Of a DNA stretch of 38,433 nt, positions 4,658-28,764 are shown in pieces (within the stretch, counting starts at the first letter, position 1; every line of letters begins with the position of its first letter). Origin of the DNA: a virus; IMG/VR virus record IMGVR_UViG_3300019884_000005, positions 1-38,433 of that record. One strand, 5' to 3'. The translations under genes were made by a program, and so were the position numbers. Below the pieces are notes generated by a model. It saw only the letters and a list, made by a program, of their open reading frames with translations, did no database searches and had not been told where the DNA came from.

Positions 4658-5641
4658 ATGGAGTATTGGGAGAGAGACTACGTTTATGATGTTGGAGTAG
4701 CTCCCCAACTGAACTTCCCACGGCCACTTTATCCACCTGATAGTCCTGTGGGTGGTTCTGTTCCAGGCCCGGACGTTAAAGCGTACAAGAGGATTGCGTG
4801 GCATCTAGGCCGTTGGGCAACTGTTGATGGAGTGCCTGATTCTGCGCCTAGTTTCAGTGATGCCTATACTAACTTGTTTGCTCACGGTGAAACGAATGTA
4901 GGCAAGTCTGGTATTGAGGGAATCCAGAGACAGGCTAAGATCGTTGGTGGTAATGGTACGATTGGGCAGCGTACCTTCAACGTGATGATCTACGCTAGAA
5001 TCCCGGAAGGATTGCCTAATGCGGGTAAGTTCCCATTGGCGATTGATCTGGCAGCAAAGGAACTACTTGAGGATGCGTACCAAAATTTCGGGGATGAGGA
5101 TATCGTCACGCCACCGCCGATACCCTCAACGTCTAAGCGTCAGGTGGCTCTCGCACACTTGGAAAGGAGAGTAGGTTACACGGAACAACCGTGGGGATCG
5201 AATACAGACACTAGATCCGATGGAATCAAGACGGCACAGGTACACACAGCACAGGGTGGAACGTGGTTGATCGGAAAGCCCTGGTGTGGGTGTTGGTGCT
5301 ACTACGCTCTGGAATCTGCGGGAGTGGAAGGAATTGATAGTTCACTCGCAAGTGTGGCTCTAATCGAAGAAAACGCGAAAGCAGGTAGGAAATGCTTTAC
5401 GAGTTGGACACTAGATCGCTCAAAAGTAAAACCCGGCGATCTAGTTGTGATCGGAGGGTACGGAGTACACGTAGAGACTGTAAGAGGAAAGCCACTAGCA
5501 GATGGGAGTGTGCCAACTTATGGGGGAAATACATCAGCAGGCATTGCGGGATCGCAATCTAACGGAGGCGGAGCCTACAGAAGAGTCAGGTTCCCAAGCG
5601 AAGTCAGAGGATTCGCCAGAGTCAGATATCCTGGCGAATAG
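4658..5641 (+). CDS. Endolysin with N-terminal PG-binding-like and C-terminal CHAP domain
   Basis: Peptidoglycan-degrading enzyme for host lysis. The C-terminal half (about 160-327) is a CHAP amidase/endopeptidase: catalytic Cys in W-C-G-C-W-C-Y-Y-A-L-E-S-A-G-V, then K-P-G-D-L-V-V-I-G-G-Y-G-V-H-V-E with the catalytic His, then Y-G-G-N-T-S giving the third polar residue. The N-terminal 150 residues contain Y-K-R-I-A-W-H-L-G-R-W and S-G-I-E-G-I-Q-R-Q with T-I-G-Q-R-T-F, a PG_binding_1-like arrangement common in actinophage lysins. A P-P-P-I-P-S-T linker joins the halves. ATG start behind GAGGAGGTAAG. No signal peptide, so export depends on a holin, fitting the membrane proteins encoded just downstream. 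Confidence 0.9.
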   Translation: MEYWERDYVYDVGVAPQLNFPRPLYPPDSPVGGSVPGPDVKAYKRIAWHLGRWATVDGVPDSAPSFSDAYTNLFAHGETNVGKSGIEGIQRQAKIVGGNGTIGQRTFNVMIYARIPEGLPNAGKFPLAIDLAAKELLEDAYQNFGDEDIVTPPPIPSTSKRQVALAHLERRVGYTEQPWGSNTDTRSDGIKTAQVHTAQGGTWLIGKPWCGCWCYYALESAGVEGIDSSLASVALIEENAKAGRKCFTSWTLDRSKVKPGDLVVIGGYGVHVETVRGKPLADGSVPTYGGNTSAGIAGSQSNGGGAYRRVRFPSEVRGFARVRYPGE

Positions 5642-5732: not shown

Positions 5733-5927
5733 GTGACTAGCGCAAATGGGAACGGAGATAGATGGAAAGTTACCAAGGAGAAATTTCTGATGTTCTCCGG
5801 CCTATTCTCGTTCTTTTTTCAGCTAGTCCATGTGCAAGTGTTAGGGGGTGTCCTACATTATGAGTTTCTTCTAGGTTCCCTCGCGCTATGCGGCGTCAGT
5901 ATTGCTTGGTGGAGTGACAAGAAATGA
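5733..5927 (+). CDS. Small holin-like membrane protein
   Basis: 64 residues from a GTG start. After a polar N-terminus (N-G-N-G-D-R-W-K-V-T-K-E-K-F) come two hydrophobic segments, roughly 18-38 (F-L-M-F-S-G-L-F-S-F-F-F-Q-L-V-H) and 44-59, ending in charged W-S-D-K-K. Size, two membrane segments, charged tail and position right after the endolysin match class II holins and the small lysis-cassette membrane proteins of actinophages. Whether it forms holes cannot be told from sequence. The stop lies inside the next gene, so translation is coupled. Confidence 0.7.
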   Translation: MTSANGNGDRWKVTKEKFLMFSGLFSFFFQLVHVQVLGGVLHYEFLLGSLALCGVSIAWWSDKK

Positions 5928-6114
5928 AAGGAATGATCTGCGGAATATCATGGAAGTATTGTCGCCCGCAACTAAACAGCACCTCTCTGTTTGGTGGATT
6001 ACGCATAGGAGTAGATTAAGACTATGGGCGTATCATAACGCATGTATGCTTACGTTCACGCTCATACTGAACATTGTTACATGGTCTTTGATAGTTCTAT
6101 CTATTGTGATTTGA
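5914..6114 (+). CDS. Small single-membrane-segment protein of lysis cluster
   Basis: 66 residues if started at the GTG at 5914; TTG 5902 and ATG 5950 are alternatives and no strong ribosome site decides. The N-terminal half is polar (N-E-R-N-D-L-R-N-I-M-E-V-L-S-P) and the C-terminal 25 residues form one membrane helix (M-L-T-F-T-L-I-L-N-I-V-T-W-S-L-I-V-L). It lies between the holin-like gene and the collagen-like membrane protein, and probably belongs to the lysis unit. A competing ATGA start at 5924 opens only a 31-codon frame and was not preferred. No family recognised. Confidence 0.6.
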   Translation: MTRNERNDLRNIMEVLSPATKQHLSVWWITHRSRLRLWAYHNACMLTFTLILNIVTWSLIVLSIVI

Positions 6115-8219: not shown

Positions 8220-8223
8220 TCTG

Positions 8224-9576
8224 TTGATTAAGGTAGCTCCTGCTCTACGAGACTATAACGAGTCCGAACTAGTCTCGTTAATAAAACAAGGACTAGCCCG
8301 TGTAGACGGAGATTCCATCGTGCCGACAATCTCGGGACGGGCTAATCTGCGTGCTAACACTCATGAGGGTGGTATCTTAGCTGCCACAATCTCCACAGGT
8401 AACTCGGGTGGAGCATCGGGTGATGCTTATGACACTATCTCGATTGGTGCTGGCAATACGTTCATTTTCGATGGAACAAATGTCAAAGGTAAATTAGGTG
8501 CTAAGTTTACTAGTGGCGGTACGACGACTGGATATATCTCTTGGACAGCACTTGGCGCAATCACCACAGACGTGTGGTTTCGGACTTATTTTGCTGTCTC
8601 TGCTATTCCAACTATCAGCACTTGGTTCGATATGCTTCGCCCTATCGTATCGGGTGGTGGTCGATCCGGTGGTGATGTTGGTGTTCGTACTGATGGTACG
8701 CTTCGATGGGGCAGTGGATCTTCTGGCACCGAGGTTGTTGCAATTCGTTCAACAACTGTAATCGCGCCGAACACGATTTATCGATTAGAGTGGCGTGTTG
8801 ACCCTCATGCGACACTTGGCGAAATTGAATGGTGGCTTTATGATGAGCCTGGTGCTCCCATTGGTGATCACGTAGAAACTAAAAGTGCTGGTTCTCTTGT
8901 GAACTCAGGGAACATTGATGGCTTTCGGATGGGGAACGGTGCTACAGCTGCCAACATCAGCGGTCTTTCCGCATGGTTTGACAATGTCGCAATTTCCACT
9001 GACGGGCAAATTGGTCCTGGGTTACCTGAGCAAACTAGAGGCGTGGGAGCTGCTGTTGATGGTGGTGGTATAGGTAGTCAATGGTTTAATGTTGACAACG
9101 CAGAAGTTGAGGATACACTCGTCGCCAATTCTCTTGTTCAGGCTCAAGACCAGTCGCGATTTTTGAAATGTATTGACTTTGGTTTCACAATTCCAACAGA
9201 TGCAACTATTAACGGAATTGAAGTACGTATTAAGAAGGCTGCCGACGCAGAAGATGTAATAGTTGATAATGGCGTCAATTTGCTTAGTCCTGGTCCCGTT
9301 GGTGAAGAGGGGGATTTCGCAACTGCTTGGCCTTGGGACGTACTTACAAATATCATATATGGTGGTCCATCTTCTCTATGGGGAGATACTTGGACACCAG
9401 CTGAAATCAACGCTTCGACGTTCGGTGTCCAAGTTGGTGCTCTAAGCACAGATCCGTTGATTGAGAATCAGCCCTGGATTGACTATGTAGAAATGACTGT
9501 CTACTATACAGAAAACGGTGGACCGCCACCATCGACCATCATACCTCTGCGTTCTAGATCCGTAGTGAGAAGATGA
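8224..9576 (+). CDS. LamG/concanavalin-like fibre or decoration protein
   Basis: 450 residues from a TTG start four bases after the previous stop. The central part (about 90-260) reads as a concanavalin/LamG-like jelly roll: G-A-K-F-T-S-G-G-T-T-T-G-Y-I-S-W, W-F-R-T-Y-F-A-V, Y-R-L-E-W-R-V-D, I-E-W-W-L-Y-D, L-S-A-W-F-D-N-V-A-I-S-T-D. The C-terminal 180 residues form a second beta domain ending W-I-D-Y-V-E-M-T-V-Y-Y-T. Such domains bind sugars on the cell or particle surface. It sits among virion-like genes, so a surface protein of the particle is likely. The short basic tail (R-S-R-S-V-V-R-R) recurs in form in the next two proteins. Confidence 0.75.
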   Translation: MIKVAPALRDYNESELVSLIKQGLARVDGDSIVPTISGRANLRANTHEGGILAATISTGNSGGASGDAYDTISIGAGNTFIFDGTNVKGKLGAKFTSGGTTTGYISWTALGAITTDVWFRTYFAVSAIPTISTWFDMLRPIVSGGGRSGGDVGVRTDGTLRWGSGSSGTEVVAIRSTTVIAPNTIYRLEWRVDPHATLGEIEWWLYDEPGAPIGDHVETKSAGSLVNSGNIDGFRMGNGATAANISGLSAWFDNVAISTDGQIGPGLPEQTRGVGAAVDGGGIGSQWFNVDNAEVEDTLVANSLVQAQDQSRFLKCIDFGFTIPTDATINGIEVRIKKAADAEDVIVDNGVNLLSPGPVGEEGDFATAWPWDVLTNIIYGGPSSLWGDTWTPAEINASTFGVQVGALSTDPLIENQPWIDYVEMTVYYTENGGPPPSTIIPLRSRSVVRR

Positions 9577-9579
9577 TTA

Positions 9580-10308
9580 ATGGCTTCTCCTGTTGATGCT
9601 AACCGTCTAGCTACGAGTATTGCTACAGCGGTAGATCCGTGGACAGTCAATCTGCCTACGGGGATTACAGCAGGGCAACTATTGATCATGCTAGTTCGCT
9701 CTGCTGGAGCACAAACAGTTGCGAGTGCTCCTACCGGGTGGACAGCTTTGATTACTAATAACGTAGCTGACGCAACTGATGATGTAACAGGTATTTACTA
9801 TAGATGGGCTGATGGCTCAGAAGGATCAACCGTCTCTGTTGACTGGAGTGCGGCAGCAAAAGGGTTCGCTATTGTTTGGAGAGTTACAGGCGCTATCAAC
9901 CCTGCTACACAAGTTCCACAGGTTACGGCAGGTGCCACGCATACTACAACCGCTAACACTGCGAATCCTGGCTCTATCTCGCCTACAGGCGGTTCCAAGG
10001 ATTACTTGTTTATTGCAGTAATGGGTCAGGGTGGTGAGCTTAACTCGCCTACGGTCGCCCCGACAAACTATGGCAATCTAGTCCCAGGCAATTCAGGTAC
10101 AGCAGGTGCAGTAGGAACGAACTGTACTGGAGGGGGCGGATCAAGACAGGTAACAACGGCAACAGAAGATCCTGCCGTGTTTACGCATCCTGCCGCTGAT
10201 CTAGGAGGTATCGCATTTACGATTGCGATTCATCCTGCGCCACCGCATGTTCGTAAGAGTTTGAAATCTATTAGATCAGCCGCAGTACAGAAAGCGTCAA
10301 GGTGGTAG
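9580..10308 (+). CDS. Virion-like beta-sandwich protein
   Basis: 242 residues, ATG four bases after the previous stop. Contains W-T-V-N-L-P-T-G-I-T-A-G-Q-L-L-I-M-L-V, A-P-T-G-W-T-A-L, Y-Y-R-W-A-D-G-S-E-G-S-T-V-S-V-D-W and a C-terminal F-T-I-A-I-H-P-A strand, the layout of Ig-like or jelly-roll phage surface proteins. The basic tail resembles that of the upstream protein. The middle is Gly/Thr/Pro-rich with G-G-G-G-S loops. Function in host attachment or capsid decoration is inferred from composition and position only. Confidence 0.72.
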   Translation: MASPVDANRLATSIATAVDPWTVNLPTGITAGQLLIMLVRSAGAQTVASAPTGWTALITNNVADATDDVTGIYYRWADGSEGSTVSVDWSAAAKGFAIVWRVTGAINPATQVPQVTAGATHTTTANTANPGSISPTGGSKDYLFIAVMGQGGELNSPTVAPTNYGNLVPGNSGTAGAVGTNCTGGGGSRQVTTATEDPAVFTHPAADLGGIAFTIAIHPAPPHVRKSLKSIRSAAVQKASRW

Positions 10309-10311
10309 CAC

Positions 10312-11406
10312 ATGGCTAGGCTAGGACGCAGACGTAGAGTACAGACGTTTATCTACGCGGGTATTGCCACCGCTGAAACGACCACGCCTATTAACAGTTC
10401 TGATGTAGGAACTGGTGTCGAAGGTACAGCCACACTAGTTGCCGCGATTCCAGCGACCGACATTGGATCAGGTGTTGATACAGCTACCCCGAGAGTATTC
10501 GTTTCTAGCTCTGATACCGGATCGGGTGCAGACAACGCGGCGGTTAGTGTACCAATTGCAGCTAGTGATACTGGCACAGGAGTCAATAACACTGGCACTC
10601 TAACTGCTGCTATTCCGAGTTCGGACACAGGTTCGGGCGTTAACAACACTGGTGTGCTTACGGCGCAAATTCCGGCTACTGATACTAACGGGACGATCAC
10701 CGAAGCTGCTTCTGCTGCTGTTCCTGTATCCAGTTCTGACACTGGCTCAGGTGTTGATAATGCCACTCTCCACGCCAAGCCTAGTCAAACTGATACAGGT
10801 GCAGGAGCCGATAATCAAACGCTAGTGGCGAGATATACAGTAACGGATACCAACGGCGCTACCACTGAACAGATCAGTCTGAGGTTGTATGGAGTAGATA
10901 CGGGGTCTGGGACTGAGAATCAATCCTTGACCGCTACTATATCTGTTGCTGAAACAGGGCAGGGCTCAGACGCGGGAACTACAGGCACTCCTGTCAATAG
11001 CAGTGATTCAGGTACGGGAGTGAATAACACAGGTGTACTGACGGCGGCTCTGACTTCCTCTCAAGCCGGTACTAGTTCCGAGAATGCGGCAACCACAGTT
11101 CAGTACATTATCAACGATACGGGTGTAGGAGTCAACAGCATAGGAGTGTTGACCGCCGCAATTTTTGCAAGTGAAACGGGAACCTCAACAGAAAATGCTG
11201 TTGCTGGAGGGCAGGAATTCAAGTTCAGCGCTGACTTTGGTATTGGTGTAGAAGCTGCTATTGTCACTATTATGGTGGAAACGGGAGCAATCGCGAAGGG
11301 TCGAGTAGTTGTGCATAAATCAGCGCAGGGCGATGTTGAAGTGCGTTCAGGTAAGGCCGGTATTTTCACCAGCCCCGCTAAGGGTCGAATCGAAAGGATT
11401 AGATAA
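10312..11406 (+). CDS. Repetitive S-D-T-G-S-G-V repeat structural protein
   Basis: 364 residues, ATG behind GGTGGTAGC. After a basic start (R-L-G-R-R-R-R) residues 28-320 are about 15 imperfect tandem repeats of 17-19 residues with consensus S-D-T-G-S-G-V-x-N-x-x-x-L-x-A-x-I, best preserved in copies 2-5, 7-8 and 12. Repeats of this type (aspartate, glycine, small residues alternating with short strands) suggest a beta-solenoid or stacked Ca-binding turn. The last 45 residues are non-repetitive and basic (A-K-G-R-V-V-V-H-K). Probably a long thin fibre or surface protein. Ends in a TAATG overlap with the next gene. Confidence 0.8.
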   Translation: MARLGRRRRVQTFIYAGIATAETTTPINSSDVGTGVEGTATLVAAIPATDIGSGVDTATPRVFVSSSDTGSGADNAAVSVPIAASDTGTGVNNTGTLTAAIPSSDTGSGVNNTGVLTAQIPATDTNGTITEAASAAVPVSSSDTGSGVDNATLHAKPSQTDTGAGADNQTLVARYTVTDTNGATTEQISLRLYGVDTGSGTENQSLTATISVAETGQGSDAGTTGTPVNSSDSGTGVNNTGVLTAALTSSQAGTSSENAATTVQYIINDTGVGVNSIGVLTAAIFASETGTSTENAVAGGQEFKFSADFGIGVEAAIVTIMVETGAIAKGRVVVHKSAQGDVEVRSGKAGIFTSPAKGRIERIR

Positions 11407-11783
11407 TGCCTGATATCAGAGTCACCAGAGGCGATACTCTAGTGTTCGATGTATATGCCACCAGATTTAATGAAACCACGGAACTGGATGAACCGATTCC
11501 ACTTGCAGGAGCTAAAGCTTGGTTCACAGTTAAACGTGCGACACGTGATCCAGATAATCAGGCAATTATCAGTGTTAATACAGTAGATGATCCTACCAAA
11601 ATTTTGATTGCGAATCCTGCGGGAGGACAAATCAGAGTTGATCTAGACCCTGGCGATACTTTGATACTGCCTAAGAGTTATCTACCGTATGACGTGCAAG
11701 TTCGTGAAGCTGACGGAACGGTAACAACTGTCTCAAAAGGATCGGTTGAGGTAGACAGGGATACTACAGTCTCTTCAACCTAA
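11406..11783 (+). CDS. BppU-N-like baseplate/tail protein
   Basis: 125 residues. V-T-R-G-D-T-L-V-F-D-V-Y-A at the start, then P-L-A-G-A-K-A-W-F-T-V-K, D-P-D-N-Q-A-I-I-S, I-R-V-D-L-D-P-G-D-T and Y-D-V-Q-V-R-E-A-D-G-T-V-T-T-V form the order of strands of the BppU N-terminal baseplate domain and related phage tail accessory proteins. The match is by eye. It is the last gene of the plus-strand structural block and is followed directly by a strong terminator. Confidence 0.72.
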   Translation: MPDIRVTRGDTLVFDVYATRFNETTELDEPIPLAGAKAWFTVKRATRDPDNQAIISVNTVDDPTKILIANPAGGQIRVDLDPGDTLILPKSYLPYDVQVREADGTVTTVSKGSVEVDRDTTVSST

Positions 11784-11785
11784 AG

Positions 11786-11830
11786 CTTAGGGGGGCTAAC
11801 CGTACTCTCTCCCGGTGTCGCCCCCCTAAG
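11786..11830. terminator. Bidirectional stem-loop terminator between convergent operons
   Basis: Perfect 11-bp stem (CTTAGGGGGGC at 11786-11796 with its complement at 11820-11830) and a 23-base loop, followed on the plus strand by ATTTTCTTT. It lies three bases after the last plus-strand stop and 14 bases from the end of the first minus-strand gene, so it can end transcription from both sides. The loop is long for an intrinsic terminator, but the GC stem and T-rich flank fit. Confidence 0.8.
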
Positions 11831-11844
11831 ATTTTCTTTCCTAG

Positions 11845-11982
11845 TTATTCGCTCTGTGTGCCCTCGACCGAAGTTTCGGTCGTTACCTCTGTGGTTGTTT
11901 CTACAGACTCACCCTCAGCAGGCGTATCCTCGCCTGTCTGCTCATCATCCTCTGCGGGTGTGTCATTCTGCGGTTCACTCAT
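11845..11982 (-). CDS. Acidic 45-residue protein
   Basis: Short gene with a clear ribosome site (GGGGGTGAG seven bases before the ATG). 45 residues, almost only Glu, Thr, Asp, Ser and Pro (M-S-E-P-Q-N-D-T-P-A-E ... V-T-T-E-T-S-V-E), no aromatic residue, very acidic and surely disordered. No family. It is the last gene of the minus-strand operon and lies downstream of the secreted-protein cluster. Possible roles for such acidic short proteins include DNA mimicry or chaperoning; nothing in the sequence decides. Confidence 0.65.
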   Translation of the reverse strand: MSEPQNDTPAEDDEQTGEDTPAEGESVETTTEVTTETSVEGTQSE

Positions 11983-12003
11983 ATACTCACCCCCTCTCTC
12001 GGT

Positions 12004-12231
12004 TCATGCTGCTACCCAAGTTCCAAAGCCGTAGCCATACCAGTAGTAGCAGCGCCACCAGCCAGTCCTGCCACCAATGGTTCCATAGGCCAGCATCAGA
12101 TTGGTGTACTGATTACAGGTTGGCATTCCTGTACCGCCGTTGCCGCCGTCGAAGCTCGGGTCGATGTTGGCGGCGTTCGCGCTACCAGCAAATGCCAAGA
12201 CCAATGAAACGAGAAGAATAATTCTTTTCAT
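12004..12231 (-). CDS. Small secreted Trp/Tyr-rich protein
   Basis: 75 residues with a textbook signal peptide (M-K-R-I-I-L-L-V-S-L-V-L-A-F-A-G-S-A-N-A, cleavage after residue ~20). The mature part is about 55 residues, Gly/Trp/Tyr-rich with two cysteines (T-C-N-Q-Y, R-C-Y-Y-W-Y-G-Y-G-F-G-T-W). Strong AAAGGAGG ribosome site. It is one of three consecutive secreted small proteins; its end G-F-G-T-W-V echoes the Y-F-G-T-W-L end of the upstream neighbour, suggesting relationship. No known family. Confidence 0.8.
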   Translation of the reverse strand: MKRIILLVSLVLAFAGSANAANIDPSFDGGNGGTGMPTCNQYTNLMLAYGTIGGRTGWWRCYYWYGYGFGTWVAA

Positions 12232-12241
12232 CTATCCTCCT

Positions 12242-12619
12242 TTAGTCGCAGAGCCACGTTCCGAAGTACGGGCCACCAACACAGTGACAGTTACAACAGC
12301 GTGTGCCACCCACCCCTGTATATGAGAAGCAACGGGCAGCCGCTCCTGGCGTCGAACACATATCTCCGATCCAGTAGCCGTTACAGCCTTCGCACATATT
12401 ATTGATCTGTGCCGGTTCCAAACCAGCCCGCAATCCCATATCGAGCATCAGGTGCTTCTCGAACTCTGAGACATTGCCAGTAGCCAGCTTGTGTTCTAGC
12501 GCTGAATGCTGAGCGTGTTCGTTGCCAGCAGCCTTGGCAGGGTCTGCCCCATAGATGATGGCTGACGCCCCGCCGACTGTTGCTGCGATAACAAGCAGCA
12601 GTACAATCAACTTACGCAT
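12242..12619 (-). CDS. Small secreted Cys-rich protein, family A
   Basis: 125 residues with an N-terminal signal (M-R-K-L-I-V-L-L-L-V-I-A-A-T-V-G-G-A-S-A). After it comes I-I-Y-G-A-D-P-A-K-A-A, then a helical stretch (H-A-Q-H-S-A-L-E-H-K-L) and a C-terminal domain with eight cysteines (M-C-E-G-C-N-G-Y-W, M-C-S-T-P, R-C-F-S, R-C-C-N-C-H-C). The A-S-A-I-I-Y-G-A-D-P-A-K-A-A block is nearly repeated in the protein encoded at 28351-28764, a paralog 16 kb away. GGAAGGAGG ribosome site. Cysteine richness suggests disulfides or metal binding outside the membrane. Function unknown. Confidence 0.82.
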   Translation of the reverse strand: MRKLIVLLLVIAATVGGASAIIYGADPAKAAGNEHAQHSALEHKLATGNVSEFEKHLMLDMGLRAGLEPAQINNMCEGCNGYWIGDMCSTPGAAARCFSYTGVGGTRCCNCHCVGGPYFGTWLCD

Positions 12620-12634
12620 GTTTCCTCCTTCCTA

Positions 12635-12985
12635 TCAACAATAACCCCCGGCTGATGCCCAATAGTAAGTACCATGATCGAGAACGCGCGGTTCCCCGAG
12701 GGTACAATATGAAGCTGTGTAGCCGTAACCGTTTTTGTATTTAAGTGGCGGCCACACAAACGGCCCTACATAAACGCATTGAAACCAGCCAACCATCCTA
12801 GCTTGCCAATCAAGGAAGTAAGCATAGACGCCAGCGATACCATGCCAGCAATATGAGTTACCTCCACCACCAGGATCAATCACACTCTCGATAGGATTAA
12901 CTGCCTGCGCCGGTTCAACAACTGCAACATTCGCAGCCACGAAAAGACCAGCGAGTAGAAGTATGATGAGTGTGATACGCTTCAT
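12635..12985 (-). CDS. Small secreted protein
   Basis: 116 residues with a signal peptide (M-K-R-I-T-L-I-I-L-L-L-A-G-L-F-V-A-A-N-V-A, later A-Q-A). The mature part has four cysteines and is rich in Tyr, Trp and Gly (S-Y-C-W-H-G-I-A-G-V-Y-A-Y-F, W-F-Q-C-V-Y-V-G-P-F, Y-Y-W-A-S-A-G-G-Y-C at the very end). TTAGGAGGGAG ribosome site. Neighbours are other signal-peptide proteins and a secreted muramidase-like enzyme, so a joint role at the cell wall or in the medium is likely. No known family. Confidence 0.8.
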   Translation of the reverse strand: MKRITLIILLLAGLFVAANVAVVEPAQAVNPIESVIDPGGGGNSYCWHGIAGVYAYFLDWQARMVGWFQCVYVGPFVWPPLKYKNGYGYTASYCTLGEPRVLDHGTYYWASAGGYC

Positions 12986-13001
12986 TCAACTCCCTCCTAA
13001 C

Positions 13002-13643
13002 TCAACAACCTGATCCTACCCAATGCGAACCGTCTCTACCTGACCATCGCATGTAACCTCCTGTGATAGCTTGTCCAGCGGGTGACAACCAATTCATCCA
13101 ACTTCGCATCACTAGGTATCCTCTCGATCTAGCAGCAGAAAATGCGTCAAACACGTAAGCATAGAAGGTTCCAGACATAAACTGCAACCATCCACCTGCA
13201 CCTGAACCTTGACGGTTTGGAACCCAGGAAGTATGCCCGCCCTCACTTCCCGAACATGATATAAGCCACGAACGTGTACCAGGAAACACCTTATTAGCGT
13301 AGTCGGTAGCGAGCCACCAATTAAGGTTAGCCGTGAGTACGGCGCGTAGATCATCCGCACAAGTGCTTTCCCTTTCGCGCCATACTCGTAGAACATAACG
13401 CCTGTATGCAACGGGTCGTTTGGCGTAACGCCCAGATGACTTTGTTCGCTTTCTACCAAGAGTTTCCTGACAATTCCACGTTGACCTGACTACGTGATGT
13501 ACTTTGTGAGATAGTCTCTCACCGTATCCGTACTTGTGCTGTCCATTGCTAGTTCGTACTTCCTTCAGACTATGACCTGCTGCTATCTCTACACCGACTC
13601 CCATGAAGGCGAGTACAGCCACGATGGTAGCAGTAAGCTTCAA
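13002..13643 (-). CDS. Secreted transglycosylase/lysozyme-like enzyme
   Basis: 213 residues, TTG start behind CGGAGG. N-terminal signal segment (T-A-T-I-V-A-V-L-A-F-M-G-V-G-V-E-I-A-A-G), then about 80 basic residues, then from about 125 the catalytic domain: C-S-G-S-E-G-G-H-T-S-W-V with the likely catalytic Glu, N-R-Q-G-S-G-A-G-G-W-L-Q-F-M-S-G-T-F, and near the end S-P-A-G-Q-A-I-T-G-G-Y-M-R-W-S. This is the lysozyme-like fold seen in Rpf/SLT-type enzymes of actinobacteria and phages. Unlike the CHAP endolysin it carries its own export signal, so it can reach the wall without a holin. Last enzyme-like member of the secreted cluster. Confidence 0.8.
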   Translation of the reverse strand: MKLTATIVAVLAFMGVGVEIAAGHSLKEVRTSNGQHKYGYGERLSHKVHHVVRSTWNCQETLGRKRTKSSGRYAKRPVAYRRYVLRVWRERESTCADDLRAVLTANLNWWLATDYANKVFPGTRSWLISCSGSEGGHTSWVPNRQGSGAGGWLQFMSGTFYAYVFDAFSAARSRGYLVMRSWMNWLSPAGQAITGGYMRWSGRDGSHWVGSGC

Positions 13644-13691
13644 AAGTAAGACCTCCGTATAGATTACTAGGCACTCTCTCCTAGAGTGTTG

Positions 13692-14009
13692 CTAGTTGTC
13701 TACCCTATCACCCCCCTCCTGTTCCAAGATTGCCGCAAGTTTGGTTTCATCAATCTCTTCGATTTCGTGCAAGATCAAATCGAGCTTGGCCTGCATCGCT
13801 CTAGTGTCTCGGTTCTGTGACGACTGAATTAGGAACAGCATGATCCACGTAACCACCGTGGTAAACGTGTTGATGATCAGCTGCCAAGTGTCTGAAAAAT
13901 CAAATAGAGGCCCGCTAGCAAGCCAAATAACACAAAGGGCAACAGCAATAGTGAACGCCATAGGATGCCCCACAGCGTTGATCCACCAGTCCGCGAATCT
14001 TCTAAACAA
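13692..14009 (-). CDS. Low-affinity iron permease family membrane protein
   Basis: 105 residues from a TTG at 14009 (GAGG nine bases upstream). F-R-R-F-A-D-W-W-I-N-A-V-G-H-P-M-A-F, A-S-G-P-L-F-D-F-S-D-T-W-Q-L-I-I-N-T-F-T-T-V-V-T-W and L-I-Q-S-S-Q-N-R-D-T-R-A-M-Q-A-K-L-D are the hallmarks of the bacterial family named after yeast FET4 (Iron_permease). Two membrane helices, about 18-35 and 42-62, then a polar helix. Bacterial members have no proven iron transport; the name is inherited. It lies beside secreted proteins and was probably acquired from a host. Possible phage uses are membrane modification or a holin-like role; inference only. Confidence 0.85.
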   Translation of the reverse strand: MFRRFADWWINAVGHPMAFTIAVALCVIWLASGPLFDFSDTWQLIINTFTTVVTWIMLFLIQSSQNRDTRAMQAKLDLILHEIEEIDETKLAAILEQEGGDRVDN

Positions 14010-14155
14010 CTACGTGGTCCTCGATTCTTCTCTCCATGTAATCTTGACATATGCAAACCATCACTGAGCAAGTCGCCTCGCTCCTCTTTATTAAAAAGGC
14101 TGAGTAGTTCGTGATCTTTGGGATGCACACTGACTGTCAGCGTCTTTCTATACAT
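13877..14155 (-). CDS. Overlapping ORF with ribbon-helix-helix-like start
   Basis: 92-codon frame. Its ATG overlaps the previous stop with a GGTGAG site just before it. The first 50 residues (K-T-L-T-V-S-V-H-P-K-D-H-E-L-L, E-E-R-G-D-L-L-S-D-G-L-H-M) have the strand-helix-helix order of a short ribbon-helix-helix DNA-binding domain and fill a stretch no other gene uses. The last 44 codons overlap the start of the iron-permease-family gene in another frame and read as a membrane segment. Either the genes truly overlap by 133 bases or an end of the ORF is shifted by a frameshift. Moderate to low confidence. Confidence 0.42.
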   Translation of the reverse strand: MYRKTLTVSVHPKDHELLSLFNKEERGDLLSDGLHMSRLHGEKNRGPRSCLEDSRTGGSTLWGILWRSLLLLPFVLFGLLAGLYLIFQTLGS

Positions 14156-14498
14156 CGCTCACCGACCGCTCCAAAAGTTCCAAGTTCCTAGCGTTTGGAT
14201 CTTTCAAGTAATTTCTGACCCGTTCCTTCAGTCTGTTAATTGGATCAGGAACCGGAAACCGTCGATGATCTTCGTTAATCTCGTCTCGCATATTACCTGG
14301 ATAACCACCCGCTCCACCGTAACAGTGAAAGTGCTCTCTCTTCTGTTCATCGGTCGATTCTATCCGCTCAAAGCCAGCAGCCTCCAAAATCGCCACTAGA
14401 GGATACGTCGTGTTTGACCAGCTAGCTGACTGTGTAGCTACGATATTCGACCTAAGCACGTTTAGTGCCTCAAGTGCTTCTTCGTGACTAAGTTCCAT
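14148..14498 (-). CDS. Hypothetical protein
   Basis: 116 residues, mostly helical with charged ends (S-H-E-E-A-L-E-A-L-N-V-L, L-K-E-R-V-R-N-Y-L-K-D) and a central H-F-H-C-Y-G-G-A-G-G-Y segment that could bind a metal or ligand. The ATG overlaps the upstream gene by 11 bases. No family recognised. Genes on both sides are small unknowns at the end of the replication operon. Confidence 0.7.
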   Translation of the reverse strand: MELSHEEALEALNVLRSNIVATQSASWSNTTYPLVAILEAAGFERIESTDEQKREHFHCYGGAGGYPGNMRDEINEDHRRFPVPDPINRLKERVRNYLKDPNARNLELLERSVSDV

Positions 14499-25011: not shown

Positions 25012-25341
25012 TTAGCAATTACAGAGACAAGTATCCATCGCAGCAGTAAGCGATTGGTACGTCGCTTGTGCCGCCTCAGGCGTCGGACTATGAATAGTCA
25101 TGAGCGCACTACCAAAACGCAGTGTAAACCCTGTTCCTGTTTCAGTCGGACGCTGAACAAAAATTATATCTTGGAGATTGATCGTCGTTTCAATGCGAAC
25201 TCCGCTTTGATTGTCTGTCGCATCAACAACAAAAGTGCAATCACAAGGTGTCGGTTCAGCAGGTGGAGCCGCTTGTGCTAGACCAACAACTGCCAGGACT
25301 AACAAGATGGCACAGATAACTACCGTAGACTTTGTATTCAC
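25012..25341 (-). CDS. Small secreted protein
   Basis: 109 residues with a strong signal peptide (T-V-V-I-C-A-I-L-L-V-L-A-V-V-G-L-A-Q-A, cleavage near residue 24). The mature part begins A-P-P-A-E-P-T-P-C-D-C, is beta-rich (D-N-Q-S-G-V-R-I-E-T-T-I-N-L-Q-D-I-I-F-V, F-T-L-R-F-G-S-A-L-M-T-I) and ends D-T-C-L-C-N-C. GGGAGAATAG ribosome site. Different from the other secreted proteins in sequence but the same size class, with cysteine pairs at both ends of the mature part. Confidence 0.78.
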   Translation of the reverse strand: MNTKSTVVICAILLVLAVVGLAQAAPPAEPTPCDCTFVVDATDNQSGVRIETTINLQDIIFVQRPTETGTGFTLRFGSALMTIHSPTPEAAQATYQSLTAAMDTCLCNC

Positions 25342-28267: not shown

Positions 28268-28343
28268 GGGGACTAGTGGGAATCGAACCCACATCTGCCT
28301 GGCGTAACCCAAGGCCGCTCTTAACCAGTTGAGCTATAGTCCC
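28268..28343 (-). tRNA. tRNA-like gene, unusual anticodon arm
   Basis: 76-base cloverleaf on the minus strand: seven-pair acceptor stem GGGACTA/TAGTCCC, four-pair D stem GCTC/GAGC with a GG in the loop, five-pair T stem GTGGG/CCCAC with loop TTCGATT. No CCA is encoded. The anticodon arm is abnormal: 24 bases between D and T arms with GCCT/AGGC as clear pairs and a 9-11 base loop instead of seven. With one bulged base the loop could show UAC (Val); isotype is not certain. It lies 7 bases after the stop of the secreted-protein gene and may be co-transcribed from the 28970 promoter. Confidence 0.72.
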
Positions 28344-28350
28344 GTTCATC

Positions 28351-28764
28351 CTAGGCGTAGCCGTAGTAGTACCCATCGGCTGCCGGACTCCACCTACAGA
28401 CACAAGCTACATATCTGTACCCGTTCCAACAACAACCTGACTGCCCTGGAGTATAACACTTATCACCGAGTCTCTTGTGGTTTCCAAGATCCTCAGGAAT
28501 AGGCGCAACTGCCATGAACGAAATTCCTTCTGCTCTAGCGATCATCGTCCGCTGGAACACTCTATGGAATAGGACTTGAATTGGACTAGGACGCCTAACA
28601 CCAGTTCTAGCTTTCTTCATCATCTTAGCGTGTTCAGCAGCAGACATACCGACCATTTCGGTATCCGCCGCCTTTGCATCATCAGCGCCAAAGATGATCG
28701 CGCTTGCACCCGCCACCGTAGCAATAGCCGTAAGTAGCGCAAGCATGATAAACAGTCGCTTCAT
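28351..28764 (-). CDS. Small secreted Cys-rich protein, family A paralog
   Basis: 137 residues, ATG behind GGGGGTG. Signal segment M-K-R-L-F-I-M-L-A-L-L-T-A-I-A-T-V-A-G-A-S-A, then I-I-F-G-A-D-D-A-K-A-A, matching the 12242 protein almost residue for residue in this block. A helical basic middle (A-E-H-A-K-M-M-K-K-A-R-T-G-V-R-R), then K-C-Y-T-P-G-Q-S-G-C-C-W-N-G-Y-R-Y-V-A-C-V-C-R-W and a Tyr/Gly end. Driven by the promoter at 28970 through a 200-base leader with three stem-loops. Function unknown; exported by prediction. Confidence 0.82.
   Translation of the reverse strand: MKRLFIMLALLTAIATVAGASAIIFGADDAKAADTEMVGMSAAEHAKMMKKARTGVRRPSPIQVLFHRVFQRTMIARAEGISFMAVAPIPEDLGNHKRLGDKCYTPGQSGCCWNGYRYVACVCRWSPAADGYYYGYA

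Follow-up and report, generated by a model that had tools for sequence, protein, structure and literature searches.

The minus strand of a 38.4-kb phage fragment from soil (IMG/VR record IMGVR_UViG_3300019884_000005, the full 38,433 nt of which are called the window here) carries near its end four adjacent genes (12004-13643) that encode signal-peptide-like N-termini: an enzyme resembling lytic transglycosylases (LT) and three small proteins (p4, p3 and p2). On balance, we take LT to be an exported accessory enzyme comparable to the transglycosylase Tgl of the Kayvirus phages, heading an exchangeable cassette of exported proteins that act on the host surface. An exported phage transglycosylase is already known from Kayvirus; new is a transglycosylase-like family, so far found in phages alone, at the head of an exchangeable exported cassette. 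The features concerned are listed in Table 1.

Table 1. Features of the window discussed in the text (SP, signal peptide; positions count from the first letter of the window).
Feature	Position	Strand	Remarks
Endolysin-like gene, without SP	4658..5641	+	phrog_21825 endolysin, E 7e-13, residues 164-324
Two small TM ORFs after the endolysin-like gene	5790-5927, 5950-6114	+	small predicted membrane proteins
Hairpin terminator, strong	11786..11830		separates the structural from the early strand, which converge here; MFE -27.8 kcal/mol (z -4.6); + side with a U-rich tail
p1, 45 aa, acidic, Thr/Glu-rich	11845..11982	-	no SP; last gene of the strand; pI 4.1
Segment replaced in the sister	11851..12638		homology stops at the p4 end and resumes near the terminator
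p2, putatively exported, 75 aa, Gly/Tyr/Trp-rich	12004..12231	-	predicted SP, ANA site
p3, putatively exported, 125 aa, Cys-rich	12242..12619	-	SP by rule; 9 Cys after the predicted cleavage
p4, putatively exported, 116 aa, Tyr/Trp-rich	12635..12985	-	AQA cleavage site; 4 Cys after the SP
LT, putatively exported, lytic-transglycosylase-like, 213 aa	13002..13643	-	TTG start after GGAGG
2-TM membrane protein, directly upstream of LT	13692..14009	-	PF04120 E 5.6e-33; phrog_3485 E 7e-24
p3 paralog, second putatively exported Cys-containing protein	28351..28764	-	early region; BLASTP 36%, E 1e-13

The window is a piece of the genome of a contractile-tailed phage, the sheath gene being present in a closely related sister record. 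Structural genes occupy the plus strand up to 11783 and replication genes the minus strand between 38 kb and 11845, and the sign of the GC skew flips where the two strands meet. The nearest cultured-phage matches of the sister sheath belong to Gordonia and Arthrobacter phages and that of the sister terminase to an Arthrobacter phage (~32-33% identity in both cases), which suggests an actinobacterium as the host; such a cell has one membrane, and proteins exported across it would arrive in the wall and the medium. The endolysin-like gene (PHROG endolysin, Table 1) lies ~7 kb from the cassette on the opposite strand, in agreement with the first-pass annotation, which had held the cassette to be separate from the endolysin module. 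A tRNA gene (28268-28343, minus strand; Rfam tRNA 50.6 bits) was called as tRNA-Stop with the anticodon UUA by ARAGORN; its anticodon stem is apparently mismatched and position 33 is G. No recoding was seen, because TAA is still the commonest stop codon of the late genes.

The genes at the end of the minus strand follow each other in the order 2-TM protein, LT, p4, p3, p2 and the acidic p1 (the last falls within the range of the first-pass annotation but was not described there). Each cassette gene has a good Shine-Dalgarno sequence, and the internal gaps measure ~10-20 bp. Signal peptides were called by a home-made rule (K/R n-region, hydrophobic core, AxA site, no later TM segment), which p2, p3 and p4 pass with the sites ANA, AKA and AQA, respectively; the window copy of LT fails it at a weaker cleavage site (IAAG), and the 92% identical sister copy passes (AEA followed by H). 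Four genes in a row with signal peptides, as originally claimed, were thus recovered, with LT passing in its sister copy: given 8 such genes among the 86 called, random placement would produce a run of four with a chance of 0.0026, and the three in a row of the sister (of 4 such genes among 65) have a chance of 0.0056. Type-I-like signal peptides (AxA sites, no lipobox, no later TM segment) are supported by the rule for the cassette proteins; the proposed export holds to this extent, with the cleavage site of the window LT being imperfect. In p2-p4, neither a lipoprotein signal nor an Ltp-type domain was found (LPAM_1 scored far below its cut-off, there is no Cys at the cleavage site, and Pfam and PHROG gave no other family), and a search of a defence-system library returned nothing firm.

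The three small proteins had been described as rich in Cys, Trp and Tyr, and their composition confirms this: against averages over all called genes of 3.2% Tyr, 2.2% Trp and 1.3% Cys, the part after the signal peptide contains 10.9% Tyr and 7.3% Trp in p2, 12.5% Tyr and 5.7% Trp in p4 and 9.6% Cys in p3. Outside the sister, p4 has no homolog in IMG/VR contigs or in the phage records, and no Pfam or PHROG family (a weak Pfam match to Defensin_big lay below the cut-off and was set aside); for p2 none was found in IMG/VR, and p3 and its paralog have no relatives elsewhere in IMG/VR, nor p3 in the phage records. Another orphan gene with a predicted signal peptide (25012-25341, minus strand; 109 aa, with CDC and a C-terminal CLCNC motif) lies in the early region.

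LT consists of a putative signal peptide (residues ~1-23), a basic, helical region (24-105; pI 10.6) and a catalytic-like domain (106-213) with Glu134. The check by AlphaFold and structure search that the first-pass annotation had proposed was run on this protein. The model of the LT domain (residues 102-213) has a pLDDT of 86.6 and a pTM of 0.84, and all 16 VIA-align entries listed for it are GH23-type enzymes, led by Slt (Z 7.3 over 93 residues, 3.3 A), Slt70 (Z 6.9) and MltF (Z 6.8) and including a Ralstonia GH23 chitinase (Z 5.8) and the phage LT 9udh (Z 3.3), scores that, being below 8, may reflect a common arrangement. With Foldseek, the best matches of the domain were a phage lytic transglycosylase, Slt and MltF, none of them significant (every E > 0.8). 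The clean structure result was obtained with the domain model alone, unlike the model of the whole 213 aa, for which Foldseek returned noise, although VIA still set residues 107-212 on Slt. Taken at these modest scores, the comparisons support a resemblance of the predicted domain to GH23-type lytic transglycosylases, and the muramidase-like enzyme of the first-pass annotation is better described as lytic-transglycosylase-like, with altered motifs. A muramidase with a nucleophilic Asp was rejected, because no Asp is conserved in the domain and the fold points to transglycosylases.

The position of the putative catalytic residue agrees between two kinds of alignment. The VIA start positions pair Glu134 with Slt E503 (an E503Q mutant is named in the PDB title), Slt70 E478 and position 316 of MltF, provided that the first 27 positions are ungapped, and hhalign against E. 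coli Slt, with a weak E-value (0.028), equates it with Slt70 E478 (505 in the preprotein) and sets GGWLQFM against GLMQIMP. E478 is the catalytic residue of Slt70 (PMC5406664, PMC550655). As in GH23 enzymes, the putative catalytic Glu ends the second helix of the predicted domain, whose lysozyme-like SLT fold has moderate support from the model. Glu134 is invariant in all 28 aligned sequences, as are G151, Q154, F155, T159, Q191, A192 and W208 (L052, one of the sequences, is very distantly related); of the catalytic E-G-G noted at first, the Glu is therefore upheld and the two Gly residues vary. A Ser or Thr straight after the catalytic Glu is a feature of the SLT family (PMC550655); LT has Gly there in the window, and Gly, Cys or Ser in the relatives. 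GLMQ(I/V) is altered, nearly all members having G(G/S)(W/P)(L/M)QF in the aligned position, and AYNxG is not present, the conserved C-terminal segment being QA(L/I/M/F) followed by small residues. The Pfam model PF01464 gave no match in the window itself; of the relatives it found one, that of L015, at 13.9 bits (E 0.001), under the Pfam cut-off of 21.3 bits. We infer from the predicted fold and the Glu position that LT works like a lytic transglycosylase, yet we do not file it under the SLT family, because each of three family motifs (Ser after Glu, GLMQ, AYNxG) is altered.

With the LT sequence alone as query, Pfam, PHROGs, NCBIfam and PDB yielded no match above threshold (a weak Pfam match to LcnG-beta was below the cut-off and was set aside). 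Degenerate-pattern scans recovered relatives in ~26 distinct IMG/VR contigs; no homolog was confirmed in 84,980 prokaryote genomes (two profile scans, GTDB) and none was found in 50,697 phage records (tblastn, INPHARED), so that by these searches the family has so far been found only in uncultured phages. By rule, a hydrophobic, export-like N-terminal segment is present in 27 of the 27 members with a complete N-terminus, many of them with an AxA site, although the start codons of L010, L021 and L043 are uncertain. The LT gene adjoins the large terminase gene in five contigs (L003, L008, L014, L016, L017) and lies near a helicase gene in L040/L043. Genes with a predicted signal peptide directly follow it in L010 (two, 285 aa and 48 aa) and L051 (~238 aa), whereas in most relatives it has no such neighbour. 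Because most relatives lack such a neighbour and the gene is often beside the large terminase, LT is, as far as gene order tells, a travelling accessory gene with occasional, not obligatory, small secreted companions. Common to the putatively exported proteins L010:1516-2370 and L051:367-1080 are a VTICHK segment and tails rich in Pro and Thr, the score being partly compositional.

Among known systems, the closest parallel is Tgl, an exported transglycosylase of staphylococcal phages that is made early and acts as an accessory endolysin; it digests the wall and lyses the host only after membrane depolarisation, and it acts beside a holin-dependent endolysin (PMC7150955). Like LT, Tgl has its own signal peptide, and its gene is not next to that of the main endolysin (the distance is three genes in Kayvirus and, for LT, ~7 kb to the endolysin-like gene); it is transcribed early, and LT sits on the early strand. 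A second, holin-dependent endolysin in the Tgl genome may have its counterpart in the separate endolysin-like gene of the window, with two small TM ORFs behind it as candidate holin genes. Unlike LT, which matches no such model, Tgl is related to IsaA/SceD and to the pfam06737 transglycosylase domain; a further difference is that LT heads a set of small, putatively exported proteins. By the signal-peptide rule, LT resembles exported phage lytic enzymes of the kind of Tgl and Lys44 in being a putative wall-cutting enzyme with a Sec signal peptide. With GH23/SLT enzymes (Slt70, Slt, MltF, phage phiKZ gp144) it shares the predicted lysozyme-like fold, the catalytic Glu position and a G-x-x-Q after the Glu; it differs from them in Gly (or Cys/Ser) after the Glu, in GG(W/P)(L/M)QF for GLMQ, in the lack of AYNxG, in scores below the Pfam cut-offs and in a short domain (~108 aa). 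The Rpf proteins of actinobacteria resemble LT as small secreted wall-cutting proteins in a probable actinobacterial setting, but LT is phage-encoded and has no further recognised domains, and PF06737 (the Rpf/Tgl domain) gave no match in 16 LT members at E up to 1.

Modification of the host wall is the best-supported of the roles that the first-pass annotation had proposed, because putatively exported proteins occur together with an LT-like predicted fold and Glu position; for a superinfection block or an action on neighbouring cells, no direct evidence was found. We suggest that the cassette forms an accessory module of exported proteins, in part exchangeable, and occupies the promoter-distal end of the early/replication strand. 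LT would leave the cell via the host Sec pathway and be freed by signal peptidase I; its basic N-region may bind the anionic wall, and Glu134 may serve as the catalytic acid when glycan strands are cut. Presumably made before the late genes (a search for promoter evidence gave no support for cassette timing), LT would most likely loosen or prime the wall during infection and help the separate, probably holin-dependent endolysin to complete lysis, as Tgl does in Kayvirus; accessory lysis or wall priming is ranked as its most likely role. The small proteins p2-p4 may be host-surface factors at work beyond the membrane or within the wall.

The exchangeable part of the cassette is seen in the sister, to which blastn matched 10240-11850 and 12639-14156 of the window with nothing between. 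At the place of the replaced segment, the sister encodes one 160-aa, putatively exported protein (L002:8915-9397) with HEYGH and a downstream ELFAD, by its HExxH motif a possible zinc protease; it has no family or PDB match and no IMG/VR homolog beyond the sister record. The whole sister record lacks p3, the matching place lacks p2, and an acidic 43-aa ORF occupies the place of p1. In contrast, p4 is 97% identical with a dN/dS of 0.026, and LT, at 92% identity, has a dN/dS of 0.20; by these ratios both are kept by selection. The best reading is that p4 is a constant partner and p3/p2 are cargo, exchanged by the sister for the HExxH protein. In the tail region (8222-10240 of the window), genes that probably encode host-recognition proteins are strongly diverged from the sister, which is otherwise 84-96% identical. 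The sister tail module also encodes a 409-aa protein with a predicted signal peptide and a right-handed beta-helix (L029:6525-7751; PF13229 1.4e-5, just below the cut-off), without a counterpart in the window.

Variable cargo (p3/p2 or the HExxH protein) would also be expected of receptor-directed factors, and the difference between the sisters in tail genes (8.2-10.2 kb) and the likely early expression fit such a function, in which exported LT and the small proteins alter or cover a wall-polymer receptor so that sister phages no longer adsorb. A surface-exposed precedent is the Ltp lipoprotein of TP-J34 (PMC3952083), and an Ltp-like protein has been proposed in a Cutibacterium phage (PMC11480721). 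The cassette proteins, like the Ltp/Sie superinfection-exclusion proteins, are small, phage-made and meant to act outside the membrane; however, p2-p4 lack an Ltp/Sie domain and a lipobox and are not detectably related to them in sequence, and exclusion matters less to a phage that looks lytic (no integrase or repressor was noticed in the 38.4-kb fragment). We regard superinfection control as unlikely, if the most credible of the alternatives.

The 2-TM protein, a possible partner of LT, could instead make the pair a second lysis cassette, with a (pin)holin-like protein and LT as a secretory endolysin activated by a drop in membrane potential. The genes are adjacent and both are conserved in the sister (97% identity and a dN/dS of 0.044 for the 2-TM protein, 92% identity for LT), the 2-TM protein weakly matches Phage_holin_2 (0.009), and depolarisation-dependent secretory endolysins are known (PMC7150955, PMC6832245). 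The match to PF04120, of the 'low affinity iron permease' type, is far better, however, and the PHROG of the protein is filed as moron; in a non-systematic look, no 2-TM neighbour was noticed next to LT in the relatives, and LT is encoded on the early strand at a distance from the endolysin. This arrangement is rather improbable. To a similar degree we doubt a broader scheme, in which an enzyme exported early on opens up or remodels the wall, letting interchangeable exported effectors through to the cell surface or the medium; their targets would be the host surface, rival phages or neighbouring, perhaps dormant, soil cells, and the effectors themselves Cys/aromatic-rich peptides in one phage and the HExxH protein in its sister.

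That the signal segments act as membrane anchors only, with the proteins remaining membrane-attached, might be read from the imperfect AxA site of the window LT and from long hydrophobic stretches in three relatives (L020, L041, L048); it is improbable in view of the sites that follow the hydrophobic core in p2-p4 and in the sister LT, and an anchored LT domain would still face outside. Virion transglycosylases are common, and the LT genes adjoining the large terminase would suit an enzyme packaged to cut the wall during DNA entry, but such a role is very improbable because LT carries a predicted export signal: the signal-peptide-like N-terminus of all complete members would take the protein out of the cytoplasm, the site of virion assembly, and the window LT is encoded on the strand opposite the structural genes.

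With LT comes a compact transglycosylase-like family that goes unrecognised by current libraries. The usual picture is that phage proteins work within the cell up to lysis; if the exported cassette functions as we propose, these phages would act on the host wall from its outer side before they lyse the cell, and the variable genes for exported proteins would offer a direct test of whether phages reshape the surfaces of their hosts, or their neighbours, in soil.
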